A DNA stretch of 64,000 bases. It comes from Acidobacteriaceae bacterium. Its GTDB lineage: Bacteria > Acidobacteriota > Terriglobia > Terriglobales > Acidobacteriaceae. Where the stretch lies: contig CAHJWN010000004.1 in the NCBI GenBank assembly GCA_903642265.1, forward strand, positions 1 through 64,000, written 5' to 3'. Below, piece by piece: positions 12,097 through 24,972 of this stretch. The stretch's first letter is position 1. Each line of letters starts with the position of its first letter. A program made the translations under genes and the position numbers. The notes beneath the pieces are model-generated. The model was not told the DNA's origin and searched no databases. It worked only from the letters and a program-made list of their open reading frames with translations.

Positions 12097-14367
12097 ATGC
12101 GCTTGCAACGTAATTCTCTGTTCGAGTACGTTTTGAACCATCACGGTCGCTGCTGGGCCGCACTGATTGCGCTGACACTTGGGAGTAGTGTGTCAGTTCG
12201 AGCAGAGGGTACTCCGCTGCACCTCGTACCCATGCCGCGCGTAGTAGCCGGGCTCTCGACGCAGGTGCTGGCCGAAGGCGTGCAGATTACGTGCTCGACG
12301 CCATGCAACTCGGAGGACGCGTTTGCCATTGCTGACCTGAAAGCCTCGCTTGCCGCGAGAGGAGTTGCGGTCACCCCTGATTCAGCGGTGAAGATCCTGG
12401 TGGTCCGGTATGGGTCTTCGCTGTCGCAGCAGATCTATCGTGACTCGCTGAAGCAGGGAGGAACAGGTTCCGATGCCGCGACAGGCATGCCTGAGGAGAT
12501 GAAGGCGGAAGGCTACGTGATGACTCCGGATGGAAAGGGGCTTGCCATCACTGCCGCCTCGGCCGAAGGCATCTTCTATGCTCTCCAGACACTCAAGCAG
12601 CTGGTTGAGGCCTACCCGGGTCAGCCGCCGGTGCTGCACACAGCGACAATTCGTGATTGGCCGGCAATGCGTTATCGGGGGCTTGATGATGACCTTTCAC
12701 GCGGGCCAGTGACGACGCTCGAGTTCGAAAAGAAAATGATTCGAACGCTCGCGGCATACAAGATCAACCTCTACTCGCCCTATTTCGAACATACGGCGGG
12801 GGATGTGTCGAATCCGCTGCCGGGACCTCCTGGAGGAACGATCACGGCCGCAGATGCGGCGGAACTGGTCGCGTATGCGAAGCCGTATCACGTGACAATC
12901 GTGCCGGAACAGGAGGCGTTTGGCCATCTGCACCATAACCTGACATGGGAGATGTACCAGCCGCTGGCGGAGACACCGCATGGAGCGGTGCTTGCGCCTG
13001 GGCAGGCGGGAGCTCTGGCGCTGACAACACAGATGCTGACCGAGCTTGCGGCTCAGTATCCAAGTCCGTTTCTGCATATCGGTGCGGACGAGACGGTCGA
13101 CCTGGGATTGGGGCAGACGAAGGCGGATGTGGATGCACGCGGACTGGCTCCGGCATACCTGGACTTTATGCAGCGGATTGTCACATCGCTTGCCCCACTG
13201 CATCGCAAACTGCTGTTCTGGGGCGATATTGCGCAGGACGCACCTGACCTGCTGAAGCAGCTTCCGGCCAGTTTCAAGCAGAATACGATTGCAATCGCGT
13301 GGGTCTATAGCCCGGAGCCGAAGGGCTATGACAAGTTTTTGGCGCCCTTCAAGGCGGCAGGATTTGAAACCTGGGTCGCGCCGAGCGTGAACAACTTCCG
13401 AAAGGTCTATCCGAACAACAACTATGCGTTAGCGAATATCCAGGAGTTTGTACGTGATGGGCAGCGCCTGGGTTCGACCGGCATGTTAAACACGATCTGG
13501 AATGACGATGGTGAAGGACTGTTCAACCAGGATTGGTATGGGATTTTATTTGGAGCTGCGGCCTCGTGGCAGAAAGGTGAGTCGTCGATCTCAGAGTTCC
13601 AGGGATCGTACGCGCAGGTGTTCCATAACGACGCGACCGGCAAGCTGAACCAGGCGCAGACTGAGTTGATGGCTGCACATGCCTTGCTAAAGGAGCAGGC
13701 GAAGGTAGGGGATGCGTCGAATAGCCTGTTCTGGCTGGATCCGCTGTCGAAGGATGGGCTGAAGATCGCGTCGCAGATCCGGCCGTACACGCATGATCTA
13801 AGGCTGCATGCGGAGGCGGCGCTGACGTTGATTGCGCAGGCCCGGGCGGCTTCGGGAACGCACGCGATGCCGCCAACTCCCCCGGCTAATGCAGGTTACG
13901 ATTCAGTGACTTACGGCACTGCAAGTTCCAATTTGGCTGAGCCGGATGCGGTGGATGCGCTGGAGCTTGGTGCTCGGCGGATAGACCTTATCGGGCTGAA
14001 CTTTCAGCTGTCTGACGAAATTGTGCAGGGATACCAACGGGCATATGGGATGCAGAGCACAACCGATAAAAAGCAGAAGGCGGCGGTTGGTCGAGAGCTT
14101 TCGGACATTAACGGAATCAATGGACGGATCGAGGACATCCGGGACACATACTCGCTGCTGCGAGATTTGTATGAGGCGGCGTGGCTGCGATCCAATCGCG
14201 GATATGCGCTTCGCCCTGCGCTCGAACATTACGACTTTACCGTAGGGGTGTGGCAGGCGCGGAGCGATCGCCTTCGGAGCGCGCTGAGACAGTGGAACGA
14301 TCTGCATACGCTTCCTTCAGCGGCAGAAATAGGGCTGCCGAGCGCAGTTACTTCCTCCGCGAAATAG
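12097..14367 (+). CDS. Beta-N-acetylhexosaminidase, glycoside hydrolase family 20
   Basis: 756 residues from the ATG at 12097 (a TTG six codons earlier is in frame but less likely). It has an N-terminal signal sequence (WAALIALTLGSSVSVRA). The GH20 N-terminal domain (residues ~40-190) precedes the TIM barrel, which carries the catalytic Asp-Glu pair in HIGADETVD (Asp331, Glu332) and the ligand-binding motifs YRGLDDDLSRG and NTIWNDDGEGLF. GH20 enzymes remove terminal GlcNAc or GalNAc by substrate-assisted catalysis. The periplasmic or exported enzyme would feed GlcNAc to the pathway that includes nagA, 48 bp downstream. The C-terminal ~200 residues are helical and lack an assigned function. 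Confidence 0.92.
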   Translation: MRLQRNSLFEYVLNHHGRCWAALIALTLGSSVSVRAEGTPLHLVPMPRVVAGLSTQVLAEGVQITCSTPCNSEDAFAIADLKASLAARGVAVTPDSAVKILVVRYGSSLSQQIYRDSLKQGGTGSDAATGMPEEMKAEGYVMTPDGKGLAITAASAEGIFYALQTLKQLVEAYPGQPPVLHTATIRDWPAMRYRGLDDDLSRGPVTTLEFEKKMIRTLAAYKINLYSPYFEHTAGDVSNPLPGPPGGTITAADAAELVAYAKPYHVTIVPEQEAFGHLHHNLTWEMYQPLAETPHGAVLAPGQAGALALTTQMLTELAAQYPSPFLHIGADETVDLGLGQTKADVDARGLAPAYLDFMQRIVTSLAPLHRKLLFWGDIAQDAPDLLKQLPASFKQNTIAIAWVYSPEPKGYDKFLAPFKAAGFETWVAPSVNNFRKVYPNNNYALANIQEFVRDGQRLGSTGMLNTIWNDDGEGLFNQDWYGILFGAAASWQKGESSISEFQGSYAQVFHNDATGKLNQAQTELMAAHALLKEQAKVGDASNSLFWLDPLSKDGLKIASQIRPYTHDLRLHAEAALTLIAQARAASGTHAMPPTPPANAGYDSVTYGTASSNLAEPDAVDALELGARRIDLIGLNFQLSDEIVQGYQRAYGMQSTTDKKQKAAVGRELSDINGINGRIEDIRDTYSLLRDLYEAAWLRSNRGYALRPALEHYDFTVGVWQARSDRLRSALRQWNDLHTLPSAAEIGLPSAVTSSAK

Positions 14368-21100: not shown

Positions 21101-22341
21101 CCTACGCTGTAGACGGCGATGGCAAAGAGCACGAAAGCCCACATCACGGTTGAGGCGCGGGAGATCATGATGCGTTCGCGATCTTCTGCTGCGGGCCGCC
21201 AGCGCATGTAGAAGTCCACAACCGTGGTGGAAGAAAGCGAGTTCAGCGCAGCCGAGAGGTTCGACATCGCCGCAGCCAGGATCGCGGCGACCATCAATCC
21301 GGCGACGCCGATAGGCATCTCGCGGACGATGAAGGTGGGGAAGATCCTGTCAGCCGAAGCGAAGACAGTGGGGTGTAGTCCGTAGAAGACATAGAGGCCC
21401 GCGCCGATCAGGAGGAACAGCGTGAACTGCATGAAGATGACGACGCCTGAACTGAGCAGGGCGAGGCGCGATTCGCTGAGGTTCTTTGCGGCCAACATGC
21501 GTTGGACCATAAGCTGATCGGTGCCGTGCGACGCCATTGTGAGGAACGTGCCGCCGATGACTCCGGCCCAGAACGTGTAGGACTGCGTGAGGTTCAACGC
21601 GAAGTTGAAGAGGTGAAACTTGCCTGCGATGCTGGCGACGCGATGGATCTCGGTCCAGCCGCCGGGGACGTGCTGGCCAAGGGTAGCGATGGCGACGATG
21701 GTGCCGCCGACATAGATGACCATTTGCACGACATCGGTCCAGATGACTGCAGCCATGCCACCTTCGAAGGTATAAAGCAGCGTGAGCCCGGAGATAATGG
21801 CGATCGAGAGAACGTCGCGCGTGCCAATGGCGATGCCGACAACGATTGAGACGGCGAAAACTCGGACGCCTTCGGCTGCCGCTCTGGTGAGAAGGAAGAG
21901 CAGCGCGGTGACCTTGTGCAGGGTGTGGCCGAAACGGTCGTCGATGAGCTGGTAGGCGGTCATCATCTGGCCTTGAAAATACTTTGGAAGGAAGATGAGC
22001 GCGACGACGATGCGGCCCAGCATGTAGCCGAGGACGACTTGAAGGAAGCCGAAGTCTCCGGCGAAGGCTACTCCGGGTATGGAGATGATGGTGAGGGTGC
22101 TGGTCTCGGCGGAAACGATGGAGAGGGCAATGGCCCACCAGGGGATTGTGTTGCCGGCGAGAAAGTAGTTCTTAAGTGACTTGTCTTTTTTGCCATCGGC
22201 TCCGCGACCACCACGGAAGCGCAAGCCGAAGAGGGTAATGCCGATGAGATAGACGGCGACGAGGGCGAGGTCGAAGGTGGAGAGGCGGGTTCTGGAGCCA
22301 GTGGCCAGCATCGCCGAAGCTACTAAATTCACACTCGTCAA
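18136..22341 (-). CDS. Fusion: sodium:solute symporter - serine hydrolase - NamZ (DUF1343) muramidase
   Basis: One unbroken 1401-residue frame. Residues ~24-510 are a sodium:solute symporter (SSS) with about 13 membrane helices. Residues ~511-537 (after RSRKN) are hydrophobic and end in LPAQA, like a signal peptide. Residues ~545-975 are a beta-lactamase/AmpC-type serine hydrolase with SLTK (622-625), YSD (714-716) and HTG (926-928). Residues ~1036-1401 are NamZ/GH171: FSPEHG, DLQDAGVRFYTY, LDRPNP and GRGTDTPFEHIG. NamZ removes MurNAc from peptidoglycan ends, so release, peptide or ester cleavage and import may be united in one envelope protein. This role is inferred from the domains. If segment 511-537 spans the membrane, both enzymes are periplasmic; cleavage after AQA would free them. 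An internal ATG (Met506, 20826) could also start a separate secreted hydrolase-NamZ protein. Confidence 0.88.
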   Translation of the reverse strand: MTSVNLVASAMLATGSRTRLSTFDLALVAVYLIGITLFGLRFRGGRGADGKKDKSLKNYFLAGNTIPWWAIALSIVSAETSTLTIISIPGVAFAGDFGFLQVVLGYMLGRIVVALIFLPKYFQGQMMTAYQLIDDRFGHTLHKVTALLFLLTRAAAEGVRVFAVSIVVGIAIGTRDVLSIAIISGLTLLYTFEGGMAAVIWTDVVQMVIYVGGTIVAIATLGQHVPGGWTEIHRVASIAGKFHLFNFALNLTQSYTFWAGVIGGTFLTMASHGTDQLMVQRMLAAKNLSESRLALLSSGVVIFMQFTLFLLIGAGLYVFYGLHPTVFASADRIFPTFIVREMPIGVAGLMVAAILAAAMSNLSAALNSLSSTTVVDFYMRWRPAAEDRERIMISRASTVMWAFVLFAIAVYSVGVGGKGHVVEIGLSIASVAYGALLGVFLLGTLTKYATQNGAIIGMIIGFALNVALWQQPHAIVLTNGLTLPKVAFTWYVLIGSVVTFAAGSLMSLIFRSRKNVSIAVTIFICLCLPTKLPAQASHTNPGAPHLDSEVWDATTSAPISTLINDAIAAKKLPGAVVVIGHNGHIVFEQAYGNRKLASEPGLDGKPAPAEPMTEDTIFDMASLTKCLATATAIMQLYELHKLDFDDPVAKYLPDFAANGKEHVTIRELLTHYSGLPPDVDLKDPWGLATPDKAEGYRRAFASPVTTTPGTHFEYSDINFITLGALVEKLSGQSLDEYAQEHIFATLRMTHTRFLPFSKVCDQYHRSGSATVYDALAPQANTCPSGTWSGAVIPSIAPTAHDNELNGAVNPDFDLLLRGTVHDPTTRRMGGVAGQAGVFSTAADISLFAQALLDRLINNTGTFPLKQSTLKLMTTPEQPATAESGATVFTPDGKPTKGIATRGFGWDINSAFSRPRGEVFSIGSFGHTGFTGTSLWMDPFSGSYVILMANAIHPRGGAPISGLRGQVATAAAKALNLCDPFAICDNVIVTSESGELNTTSSRSSAQITDVGKDAVKTGIDVLEATNFAALKSATKNGHLRIGLLTNQTGLDAQGRRTIDILKAAPGIELTTLFSPEHGIAGARDSMDLHNSTDAVTGLPVLSLYGSTDASKRPRPDDLAKLDAVVIDLQDAGVRFYTYESVMGYFLEAAGKTGTQVFILDRPNPIGGDLVQGPISDPDKTSYTAYRPEPIRHGLTIGELAQLDNAEDHLNAKLTVIPMQNWHRAEYFDSTGLKWINPSPNLRSLAAAKLYPGIGLMDYANVSVGRGTDTPFEHIGAAYIDGARLAAYLTARKISGVTFAAAKFSVADDVNHYPFHGQEIQGVEMASTDNKLLDAPELGIEMIAALHKLYPTQFLLKGVARLIANTATLDALEKGTDPRDIAAAWQPGLKAFCITRAKYLIYK
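20687..20717. repeat. Palindromic repeat inside the fusion gene
   Basis: Arms CCCACACCTC (20688-20697) and GAGATGTGGG (20704-20713) pair over 10 positions with one G-U type pair, flanked by T and GCACC. The borders TCCCAC and TGGGGCAC match the intergenic palindrome at 17149-17183. Here the element is translated and encodes the residues just after the signal-peptide-like segment (GAPHLDSEVW). Confidence 0.6.
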
Positions 22342-22424
22342 TGCGTGTCCTTGGAATGCGGCGCTGGAAGTCTTTATACGGTAGCGTTCGCCGATAAACC
22401 ATCATATGGCTGCCGCTCTGCTGC

Positions 22425-22453
22425 TTGACGCGTGGGTACCATGCCTCTAACCT
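22425..22453 (+). promoter_or_regulatory. Candidate promoter of the Cys-leader/sulfite reductase unit
   Basis: TTGACG (22425-22430) and TAACCT (22448-22453) are spaced by 17 bp. The predicted start of transcription (22460-22461) falls on a GTG codon that opens the Cys-rich leader frame, so the leader may be translated from a leaderless mRNA. The -10 match is modest. Confidence 0.45.
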
Positions 22454-22460
22454 TGAAGGA

Positions 22461-22547
22461 GTGGATATCCAAGCAATTTCGCGCTGCCGGGGCTGTATGC
22501 AGTGTTGTTGCTGCGACGCGCGCTGTTGCTTTTGTAGTGCTTCGTAG
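22461..22547 (+). CDS. Cys-rich leader peptide of an apparent cysteine attenuator
   Basis: A 28-codon frame from GTG 22461 to TAG 22545-22547. Nine codons are Cys; the C-terminal part reads CMQCCCCDARCCFC. No known domain is expected: in attenuation systems such peptides only make the ribosome pause when charged tRNA for that amino acid is scarce. The start is uncertain. AAGGAG (22456-22461) runs into the GTG, so it cannot serve as its ribosome binding site; either the mRNA is leaderless or the peptide starts at ATG 22497, which still leaves seven Cys in 16 residues. The frame is followed by a 9-bp hairpin, an intrinsic terminator and a siroheme sulfite reductase. The shifted frame is Leu-rich, but Cys fits the target gene. 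Confidence 0.65.
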   Translation: MDIQAISRCRGCMQCCCCDARCCFCSAS

Positions 22548-22581
22548 CCTGCTTTACCGCCAAGTCCGAGCCACTACAAAG
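22530..22581 (+). promoter_or_regulatory. Leader RNA hairpin overlapping the end of the Cys-rich frame
   Basis: TTTGTAGTG (22531-22539) pairs perfectly with CACTACAAA (22572-22580), extended by a T-G pair. The left arm contains the last Cys codon of the leader (TGT 22533-22535) and precedes its stop, so the position of the translating ribosome would decide whether this stem forms. Which sequence competes with the terminator could not be settled by eye. Confidence 0.55.
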
Positions 22582-22590
22582 TCCCCAGCC

Positions 22591-22617
22591 GCCCACGAAT
22601 CTCGTGGGCTTCTTTTT
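22591..22617 (+). terminator. Intrinsic terminator between the leader and sulfite reductase
   Basis: An 8-bp perfect stem (GCCCACGA / TCGTGGGC) with a 3-nt loop is followed at once by TTCTTTTT. It ends 35 bp before the sulfite reductase start, so it cannot be there to end an upstream protein gene on this strand; the only upstream plus-strand unit is the Cys-rich leader. This is the expected place of an attenuator terminator. Confidence 0.8.
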
Positions 22618-22652
22618 GATCTTCCCCATCTCTGACTCATCCAAGGATCATG

Positions 22653-24377
22653 ATGCCTGACCTGAACACGGAAGTACCTGCCAAGCCAATCAAGGAGACG
22701 AAGGCGCAGAAGTCCGAGCGGCTGAAGCTCGCAAAGAACCCGTGGGATGCGTGGGACGAGGTGCGGCAGTTTGCGAAGGAAGGCCGCGGCTCCGTGCTGC
22801 CGGAGTGGACGGGGCTCTACTTCAAGTGGTGGGGCGTTTATACGCAGGGCGATGGCGTCGGTGCGACCGGCGGAGTAGGCGGCGAGGGTAAGGCGACCGA
22901 GTACTTCATGATGCGCATTGGCCTCCCGAACGGGCTGCTGACGAGCGCGCAGCTTCGCGTGATCGCCGACCTGACGAAGAAATATGCGCGCAACCTGGCA
23001 GACATTACGACGCGGCAGAACATCCAGCTCCATTGGCTGACGATTGAAAGCCTGCCGGAGGTGGTCGATGCATTGACGGCTGTTGGGCTGTCGCCGAAGG
23101 GTGCCTGCGGCGATGTGGTTCGCAATGTGACGGGGTGTCCGCTGGCGGGATTGCATCGCCATGAACTGCTCGATGCAAGTCCACTGGCGCTCGAAATTGC
23201 GCAGAAGCTCACAGCAAATCCGGCGTTCTATAACCTGCCCCGCAAGTTCAAGGTTTCGGTGACGGGATGCCCAGAGTGGTGCTCGTACCCGGAGATCAAC
23301 GATGTAGCGCTGACCGCTATAAAGCGTGGCGAAGAAGTGGGCTATACGCTTCGTGTCGGTGGCGGGCTTTCGACGGAGCCGCATATGGCGGTTCGGATCC
23401 CGGCGTTCGTTCGGCAGGACCAGGCGTATGCCGTGGTCCACGCCACGGCGGAGATCTTTCGCGAGCAGCAGGAGCTGCGTGAAAATCGCACACGGGCACG
23501 GATCAAGTACCTGTTCATGCGCCATGGGTGGACGGCGGAGTCGTTCCTTGAGGCGCTGGAAGCAAAGCTTGGATACAAGCTCGATGCGCCGACGGATGCC
23601 GACGAAAATCTGCTGGACGATATCTATCGCGACCACATCGGTATTACGCCGCAGCGGCAAGCGGGGCTGAGTTCGGTGGGTGCGAGTGTATTACGCGGGC
23701 GGCTTTCGGGCGATCAGCTCGCGTCACTTGCGGAGCTTGCGGAGAGGTATGGGAACGGGCAGCTTCGTGCCACGATCATGCAAAACATTGTCCTGGTAAA
23801 TGTGCCCGATCGCGAGACTGCGTCTCTCGTGATCCAACTGAACTCGCTTGGGCTGCATGTAGATGTCTCGACTTTCTGGCGTGGAGCTGTCGCATGCACC
23901 GGCACCGAATTTTGCAAGCTGGCCATAGCGGAGACCAAGGGCTTCAGTAAGTGGCTGGTGTCCGAGATGGAAGATCGGCTGCCGGGGTTCGATCAGCAGA
24001 TCAAGCTGCACGTGACGGGCTGCACAAACTCCTGTGGGCAGCATTGGATTGCGGACATTGGGCTTGAAGGCAAGAAGATCAAGAAAGATGGGCAGTCTGT
24101 CGATGCGTTTTACTTCTGCGTCGGTGGAGCGGTTGGGAAATATGCGCGGACGGCGCGGCCACTGGGATATCGCGCCGCGGCGGATGAGGTACCGGCAGCA
24201 ATTGAGCGGATGCTGCGGGCGTATCTTGCGGCGCGGGTTGAAGGAGAGGACCTGCGGGCTTACTTTGCGCGAACAGATGATGACGCCTTACGGGCGCAGC
24301 TTGCGGGAACGGTCATTGATCCTGTCGAGCGGGATATGCCACCGGTTGGTGCCGGACGGCATGCTCCGGGAGAGTAG
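22653..24377 (+). CDS. Siroheme [4Fe-4S] sulfite reductase (ferredoxin type; nitrite reductase family)
   Basis: 574 residues from the second of two adjacent ATGs; AAGGA at 22643-22647 gives the better spacing to 22653. It contains two ferredoxin-like half-domains and two siroheme/4Fe-4S domains. The cluster cysteines are CTGTEFC (Cys415, Cys421) and CTNSC (Cys457, Cys461), and the siroheme-side motifs NVTGCPLAG and VTGCPEWCSYPEIND are clear. Sulfite and nitrite reductases of this family look alike. I favour sulfite reduction to sulfide for cysteine synthesis because of the Cys-rich leader upstream; that is inference. No cysH, cysD or cysN gene is in the window. A small membrane protein gene overlaps its 3' end. 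Confidence 0.88.
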   Translation: MPDLNTEVPAKPIKETKAQKSERLKLAKNPWDAWDEVRQFAKEGRGSVLPEWTGLYFKWWGVYTQGDGVGATGGVGGEGKATEYFMMRIGLPNGLLTSAQLRVIADLTKKYARNLADITTRQNIQLHWLTIESLPEVVDALTAVGLSPKGACGDVVRNVTGCPLAGLHRHELLDASPLALEIAQKLTANPAFYNLPRKFKVSVTGCPEWCSYPEINDVALTAIKRGEEVGYTLRVGGGLSTEPHMAVRIPAFVRQDQAYAVVHATAEIFREQQELRENRTRARIKYLFMRHGWTAESFLEALEAKLGYKLDAPTDADENLLDDIYRDHIGITPQRQAGLSSVGASVLRGRLSGDQLASLAELAERYGNGQLRATIMQNIVLVNVPDRETASLVIQLNSLGLHVDVSTFWRGAVACTGTEFCKLAIAETKGFSKWLVSEMEDRLPGFDQQIKLHVTGCTNSCGQHWIADIGLEGKKIKKDGQSVDAFYFCVGGAVGKYARTARPLGYRAAADEVPAAIERMLRAYLAARVEGEDLRAYFARTDDDALRAQLAGTVIDPVERDMPPVGAGRHAPGE

Positions 24378-24972
24378 GGATTTCGGGTATGCTGAGGCGG
24401 TGGCAGATCTTACCTTCGCGCAACCAACACGTCGCAATGTTATAGCGCCCATTCTCGCGGTGGCATTGCTCCTCGGTGCTGCGGCAGGTGTGCTGTATTA
24501 CAAGGCCTCGAAGAGGACCGTCTCGGCAAGCGTCACGCGCACGATCGTGCATCCGGTGAAGGTGTTTTACAAGGCCGCGCCGCAGTCAAGCTCGTTCAAG
24601 GTGCTAAAGGTCCAGGAGGGCGAGAGCGACCTGTACCTGATCCCTACGGTGCGAATAGAGAACCATCTTGATGTGCCGCTGTTCATCAAGGATTTCACCA
24701 TTGCCTTCGAGACAGACGACGGCGGGATGCATACGAGCGCGATTGAAAAGGCCGACTTCGAGACGGTGTACAGCAGCTTCCCGGAGATTAGGACACTGAT
24801 AGCGACGCCACTTTTACGAGAGACTTCGATTACGCCGGGATCGGCTGTAGAGGGTTCCATGCTGGCGCAGTTTGCGATTCCGCAGAGCGTTTGGGATGCG
24901 CGAAAGTCGGCGAGCCTGACCATTGATTTTTATCATGCGCCTTCGATCAAAATCCCCATTCCCAAGACCTGA
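24361..24972 (+). CDS. Single-span membrane protein of unknown function
   Basis: Not recognised as a named family. About 203 residues from ATG 24361, which overlaps the sulfite reductase stop; GTG 24400 (190 residues) is an equally reasonable start. There is one transmembrane helix near the N-terminus (VIAPILAVALLLGAAAGVLYY), then a soluble domain of ~150 residues, probably on the outside, with an immunoglobulin-like look: IPTVRIENHLDVPLFIKDF, ITPGSAVEGSMLAQF and TIDFYHAPSIKIPIP resemble the beta-strands of DUF4352/LEA-type domains. The overlap suggests translation coupled to the sulfite reductase; rsmE follows after 12 bp. Confidence 0.7.
   Translation: MLRESRDFGYAEAVADLTFAQPTRRNVIAPILAVALLLGAAAGVLYYKASKRTVSASVTRTIVHPVKVFYKAAPQSSSFKVLKVQEGESDLYLIPTVRIENHLDVPLFIKDFTIAFETDDGGMHTSAIEKADFETVYSSFPEIRTLIATPLLRETSITPGSAVEGSMLAQFAIPQSVWDARKSASLTIDFYHAPSIKIPIPKT

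Follow-up and report, generated by a model that had tools for sequence, protein, structure and literature searches.

Cysteine-rich leader frames ahead of sulfur genes are documented in Actinobacteria, as the earlier note on this DNA stated. The accessible parts of the relevant papers report Cys leaders in Mycobacterium, P. acnes and B. longum, where they are presented without terminators (PMC1262725), and a Cys uORF of a leaderless mRNA with ribosome occupancy in mycobacteria (PMC4633059); the available section of PMC13236596 cites Canestrari et al. 2020 for translation attenuation by mycobacterial Cys uORFs. A motif named uORFC-8-2 is predicted before cysS in Rhodobacterales (PMC8632094), and Streptomyces lividans possesses leaderless leader peptides, of which LeuL2, TrpL1 and IlvL are followed by a seemingly Rho-independent terminator (PMC8079986). 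For Acidobacteria, the accessible portion of a 2010 paper states that almost none of the predicted attenuators had a function (PMC2965389). The main texts of PMC11109978 and PMC6429828 contain no word beginning with 'cys', and the open-access literature, the scope of our search (most subscription papers lie outside it), yielded no account of cysteine-responsive attenuation from Acidobacteriota.

Here we describe a locus within a 64,000-nucleotide stretch of DNA from an Acidobacteriaceae bacterium (the window) that we read, with a probability of roughly 0.83, as a ribosome-mediated transcription attenuator sensing charged tRNA-Cys. The reading draws on anatomy, conservation, covariation, computed folds, codon bias and gene context; leaderless initiation, stalling, the antitermination step and the physiological response are the parts of it that we infer. 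The proposal of a cysteine-sensing transcription attenuator made in the earlier note is supported by the conservation of the leader, the terminators, covariation and an antiterminator with predicted ribosome dependence.

All features of the locus lie on the forward strand. Direct reading places a -35 element, TTGACG, at 22425-22430 and a -10 element, TAACCT, at 22448-22453, with 17 nt between them, and the leader start codon follows the latter after 7 nt. This promoter pair is present where it had been noticed and is kept in relatives, but it did not pass a stricter promoter scan of 22100-22800, which returned no promoters. The frame that follows (22461-22547; GTG start, 28 codons, TAG stop at 22545-22547) translates as VDIQAISRCRGCMQCCCCDARCCFCSAS and, read at base level, contains the nine Cys codons previously attributed to it. 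Four of these form the TGT TGT TGC TGC run at 22503-22514, the proposed stall site. The 300 nt upstream of the gene hold eight Cys in 16 codons, a density equalled by one of 5000 dinucleotide shuffles, and the fold of 22450-22650 is more stable than 197 of 200 shuffles (z = -2.4). Further downstream, TTTGTAGTG (22531-22539) is perfectly paired with CACTACAAA (22572-22580) over 9 bp, the last leader Cys codon (22533-22535) sitting in the left arm. The hairpin is as the earlier note described it, except that it is no separate element and constitutes the core of the computed antiterminator. An 8-bp terminator hairpin, GCCCACGAATCTCGTGGGC (22591-22609; placed by a terminator finder and backed by covariation), is followed by the U-tract TTCTTTTT (22610-22617; direct reading), the end of which lies 32-35 nt before the reductase start (ATG 22650 or 22653), in keeping with the terminator reported shortly before that gene.

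A scan of the same genome with TGYTGYTGYTGY gave 93 matches; among the 30 loci inspected, the promoter arrangement was found at the attenuator locus only. A short frame ending CLCCCCCCCG at L128 (contig C9 of genome G000, approximately 14219-14239 on the minus strand) has no such promoter layout and overlaps longer frames on the opposite strand. It is probably a chance occurrence.

The gene downstream of the leader (22650-24377) encodes a protein of 575 residues in which NIR_SIR and ferredoxin-like half domains are each found in two stretches; the general NIR_SIR domains match clearly. Within NCBIfam the closest model is that of the NirA family (373 of 523 bits, below cut-off); the nitrite reductase model scored 363 of 594 bits and the sulfite reductase models were further below cut-off. 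The sole NCBIfam cut-off passed, and narrowly, was that of CobG (237.1 versus 234.8). The nearest solved structure, 1zj8 (E = 1e-91), is deposited as 'probable ferredoxin-dependent nitrite reductase NirA'; this M. tuberculosis enzyme reduces sulfite. A NirA-family siroheme reductase is present, as the earlier note had it, but the sulfite specificity that it assigned depends on context, because the protein falls below the cut-offs of both the nitrite- and the sulfite-specific models. From that context, strengthened by the Cys leader, the protein is a probable assimilatory sulfite reductase. The next frame (24376-24972) has no family match and is followed by the gene for an RsmE-type rRNA methyltransferase.

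Conservation of the leader was assessed in relatives. Reductase matches were present in 232 of 300 family genomes, 30 of which were taken as loci. Of 591 confirmed reductase places on GTDB contigs, the best 80 served as named loci, most of them labelled Acidobacteriota and including Edaphobacter and Granulicella. The 111 loci in total gave 102 distinct upstream regions, which were scored for Cys density in a 16-codon window. A frame with at least four Cys is kept in 76 of the 102 (controls: reverse strand 8.8%, 2040 dinucleotide shuffles 12.9%, 1781 other stretches of the same loci 9.0%), and one with at least five in 55 (2%, 2.5% and 1.8%, respectively). The other 26 regions have fewer than four; 15 of these, hand-picked as leader-like with three Cys, were all positive with the terminator finder. 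No leader is visible at some loci, among them L092 and three labelled Methylomirabilota or Rokubacteriota (L106, L108 and L110). Runs reach five Cys, with four at our locus. Peptide sequence beyond the Cys clusters varies widely from lineage to lineage, and the RNA folds vary too; the Cys frame persists, and the position before the reductase and the promoter spacing are fixed. Reductases of acidobacterial type also occur in two records labelled Verrucomicrobia and Opitutia (L046 and L067; 73% and 65% identical to the query), which are perhaps mis-binned.

With spacings of 15 to 20 nt allowed and 17 tried first, TTGAC and TANNNT were found upstream of 54 of the 76 homologous leaders, 17 nt apart in 50 and 18 nt apart in four. 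The TTGAC form is absent from the remaining 22; in one lineage TTGC stands in its place and the layout is, by eye, unchanged. The start codon (ATG, or GTG in a few) follows the -10 element by 6-11 nt in 51 of the 54, the exceptions being L015, L029 and L104, and the GTG of our locus aligns with the ATG of relatives. On this geometry, the leader mRNA is probably leaderless or nearly so. A strict rule combining promoter, start distance and Cys content returned 46 frames from the 80 named loci, one of them on the minus strand.

The earlier note had also looked to a synonymous codon bias in homologous leaders, and such a bias was found. Taking the last 36 codons before the stop as the leader stretch, some of which may precede the start codon, we counted 279 UGU and 179 UGC (61% UGU) across the 76 loci, versus 59 and 712 (8%) in the reductases of the same loci. 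The UGU share was higher in the leader at all 76. Within runs the UGU and UGC counts were 219 and 81, among single codons 60 and 98; our own leader has five and four. Other two-fold NNY codons shift far less (46% T in leaders versus 36%), and the UGU share is 18.6% in 244 further ORFs from the named loci, the reductases of that set giving 11.3%. Since amino-acid attenuator leaders often use rare codons, the UGU bias fits a sensor. UGU is read by wobble pairing.

Comparison of folds with the ribosome at the Cys run and at the stop codon revealed the competing antiterminator that had escaped inspection by eye, whose formation is predicted solely for a ribosome stalled in the Cys run. The A-site was set to the codon that opens the main Cys run, with 14 nt covered, and the RNA up to the right arm of the terminator was folded; the set comprised the 46 of 76 leaders in which the first of two terminator finders had placed the terminator, L074 and L085 having been dropped for a misplaced one. 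The antiterminator averaged -29.0 kcal/mol for a ribosome on the Cys run and -3.1 kcal/mol for one at the stop codon. Relative to shuffled versions of the intervening stretch, z was below -1 in 43 of the 46 and below -2 in 27. At our own locus the energies were -30.5 and -1.1 kcal/mol (z = -3.1), and the predicted hairpin spans 22518-22592. Its left arm (22518-22540) is made up of leader codons after the Cys run (GCG, GCTG and TTTTGTAGTG) and its right arm (22572-22592) of CACTACAAAG and CAGCCGC, the last 2 nt forming the base of the terminator's left arm; both arms emerge from the computed fold and from covariation. In the same computation, the trp attenuator of the annotated E. coli genome went from -18.5 at the stall to -3.1 at the stop.

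The predicted antiterminator of our locus takes two of the eight left-arm bases of the terminator (shuffle mean 3.3), and this small overlap is, in the model, the weakest link of the attenuator reading in our own species. Over all 46 leaders 4.7 such bases are taken, versus 4.0 in shuffles and 2.0 for a ribosome at the stop. In the Edaphobacter-Granulicella type (33 loci, identity at least 71%), left-arm use does not exceed the shuffle mean in 19; in a second lineage of ten loci (L082 to L107), 8 to 12 of 10 to 17 left-arm bases are taken. Equilibrium folding of the full RNA with the ribosome masked predicted the terminator in both states (0.97 and 0.97 at our locus; 0.93 and 0.93 as the mean of 48 loci). 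The E. coli trp control was equally blind on this measure (0.97 and 0.99), and equilibrium folding was therefore given little weight, though it still counts against the reading. Because both folds keep the terminator at equilibrium, in trp as well, a kinetic switch would be required, like that of the textbook case. In the ensemble of RNAs that still lack the right arm, the left arm was engaged upstream with a probability of 0.11 at the stall and 0.25 at the stop for our locus, the wrong direction; the 48-locus means were 0.34 and 0.26, with differences of at least 0.1 toward the stall in 18 loci and toward the stop in 14. Thus, of the fold change proposed to switch the terminator, the dependence of antiterminator energy on ribosome position holds, but equilibrium folding shows no switch and the overlap at our locus is slight.

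Covariation was examined on an alignment of 27 sequences (A1; 26 distinct rows) that was not fitted to structure, and both stems covary, as the earlier note had anticipated. In the antiterminator, 83.0% of cells pair, versus 33 to 49% with the partner slid, and seven pairs show compensatory change, where shuffles averaged 3.4 (3 of 500 reached seven). The terminator shows 93.2% pairing and 21 compensatory cells, compared with 7.7 on average in shuffles (none of 500 reached 21); the number of its pairs with compensatory change, three, is not above shuffles (259 of 500 reach it). An antiterminator variant ending GUG:CAC was rejected: it pairs well and covaries weakly, its score being reached by 92 of 500 shuffles.

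The first terminator finder, limited to loops of at most 9 nt, missed a whole lineage and was replaced by a second. The latter located a hairpin and U-tract between leader and gene in 73 of the 76 leaders at -9 kcal/mol, a threshold at which it is permissive, since 57 of 150 shuffles were also positive; at -12 and -15 kcal/mol, leaders gave 71 and 55 of 76 and shuffles 37 and 18 of 150. At L021 and L073 at least, the hairpin that it gives differs from the terminator seen in the sequence.

A covariance model built from A1 found one match in the genome of our species, at 22503-22617 (E = 1.6e-18; 121 of 1696 first-look candidates scored). Among 31 genomes of the genus, 25 gave matches at E of 2e-5 or below, 11 being in the training set by handle and 14 not, and in all 12 of those 25 in which the reductase position is known the match lay just upstream of the reductase. 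Weak matches (E 0.03-0.04) occurred upstream of cysD in G296 and G300. The 400 nt upstream of 17 cysD loci of the genus contained at least four Cys per 16 codons in 16 cases and at least five in 12; a CCCAC...GTGGG hairpin with a T-run was seen by eye at eight of the 17, and the software accepted a true one at L151 only. No Cys-rich frame was present in the 400 nt upstream of 14 cysS or 12 cysKM loci of the genus over the family cut-off, and one each was found at 8 SulP genes, 13 weaker cysKM matches and 10 second-PF01507 genes in the cysD neighbourhood, which are probably cysH. Our own assembly holds a single weak PF01507 match. The strict promoter-plus-frame rule was set aside as a comparison for being insensitive: it returned leaders at five of 17 cysD loci, three of them on the strand opposite cysD, and none at the cysS, cysKM, SulP or second-PF01507 loci.

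Short Cys-rich frames facing a divergent gene were observed beside cysD at L142, L154 and L155 (all three by the strict scan) and at L156 and L157. In L142, L154, L156 and L157 the divergent gene carries a carboxypeptidase-regulatory domain (4/4) and in two of the four the start of an outer-membrane barrel, which suggests that a receptor is regulated in the same way. The seven distant paralogues of the reductase (six from the genus, one from the family) have three or four Cys at most. In other acidobacterial families, 16 genomes gave a match and 13 were inspected, with five Cys reached at L177 only. That locus (G335, approximately 440-640 on the reverse strand) has an RCCCSCPCL leader, a strong separate terminator of its own and a 36%-identical reductase downstream; its codons GGGCAGGGACGCGGGTTT look, by eye, complementary to the left arm of the terminator. 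We somewhat favour the broader view that a cysteine-sensing, leaderless attenuator regulon covers reductive sulfate assimilation (the reductase, the cysD operon and a receptor-like outer-membrane gene) in Terriglobia and in one or more further acidobacterial families, that the rare UGU codon tunes it, and that each lineage has rebuilt the RNA folds on a shared layout.

On the attenuator reading, transcription would start at or adjoining the leader start codon and a ribosome would load on the predicted leaderless 5' end. With cysteine plentiful, it would proceed to the stop codon and cover the antiterminator's left arm; the terminator at 22591-22609 would form and the polymerase would stop. Were Cys-tRNA scarce, the ribosome would wait in the UGU-biased run, the RNA would fold as the antiterminator at 22518-22592, capturing the base of the terminator's left arm, and the polymerase would read on into the reductase, which would make sulfide for cysteine. 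Translational or Rho-dependent control, of the kind proposed for mycobacterial Cys frames, is unlikely by comparison. Stalling would then alter access to the reductase start or to Rho, and the hairpin would merely end a short RNA. Such control has in its favour that the closest relatives with experiments, the mycobacterial leaderless Cys-rich uORFs, lack conserved terminators and are cited as translation attenuation in the accessible parts of PMC1262725 and PMC13236596, that the terminator here ends at most 35 nt from the gene, and that equilibrium folding predicts no switch of it. It is opposed by the hairpin and U-tract in 73 of 76 loci, by covariation in that hairpin, and by the right arm of the antiterminator, which enters the terminator rather than the reductase ribosome site.

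A second alternative is that the leader encodes a functional Cys-rich small protein, for metal or redox binding, with the terminator ending its own transcript. Metal binding is known from small proteins rich in Cys, the nine Cys among 28 residues would suit one, and family matches are absent either way; yet the last leader codons covary with the downstream RNA arm, the Cys codons are biased to UGU, and the sequence outside the Cys clusters varies while its location before the reductase and the promoter spacing stay constant. We regard this as very improbable. A ligand-binding riboswitch, or chance Cys codons within a G/U-rich stem, would account for a stable structured leader before a metabolic gene and is harder still to credit: no Rfam 15 family matched in the window at gathering score, the in-frame Cys density is well above shuffles, and it is the folds that vary by lineage and the Cys frame that persists.

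The attenuator reading would supply a function for attenuators in a large soil phylum, where, by the accessible text of PMC2965389, almost no predicted one had any. With it comes a transcription attenuator specific for cysteine whose structure is supported in several lineages, and it opens to testing whether ribosome and polymerase are more tightly coupled on a leaderless mRNA and whether UGU is the more starvation-sensitive Cys codon.

In comparison with known systems, E. coli trpL shows the same ribosome-position dependence in the same computation; it differs in its Trp codons and in having an ordinary ribosome-binding site, unlike the predicted leaderless start here. The mycobacterial leaderless Cys uORFs share a short Cys-cluster frame before sulfur assimilation genes and, by prediction in our case, a leaderless mRNA. 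They belong to a different phylum and, in the available parts of their descriptions, have no conserved terminator and are cited as translation attenuation, whereas the present locus combines an intrinsic terminator with a computed antiterminator. The Rhodobacterales motif uORFC-8-2, in the accessible text of its source, is likewise a predicted Cys-codon transcription attenuator with an intrinsic terminator, but has two tandem Cys codons before cysS, where ours has runs of up to five before the reductase or cysD. The Streptomyces lividans leaders resemble ours in pairing a leaderless leader peptide with a seemingly Rho-independent terminator, although none of the eight listed in PMC8079986 is cysteine-dependent. 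The mechanism is the classical one, and the present case, which is well supported, stands apart in the amino acid sensed, in its phylum, in a leader that is probably leaderless and in a probable regulon.
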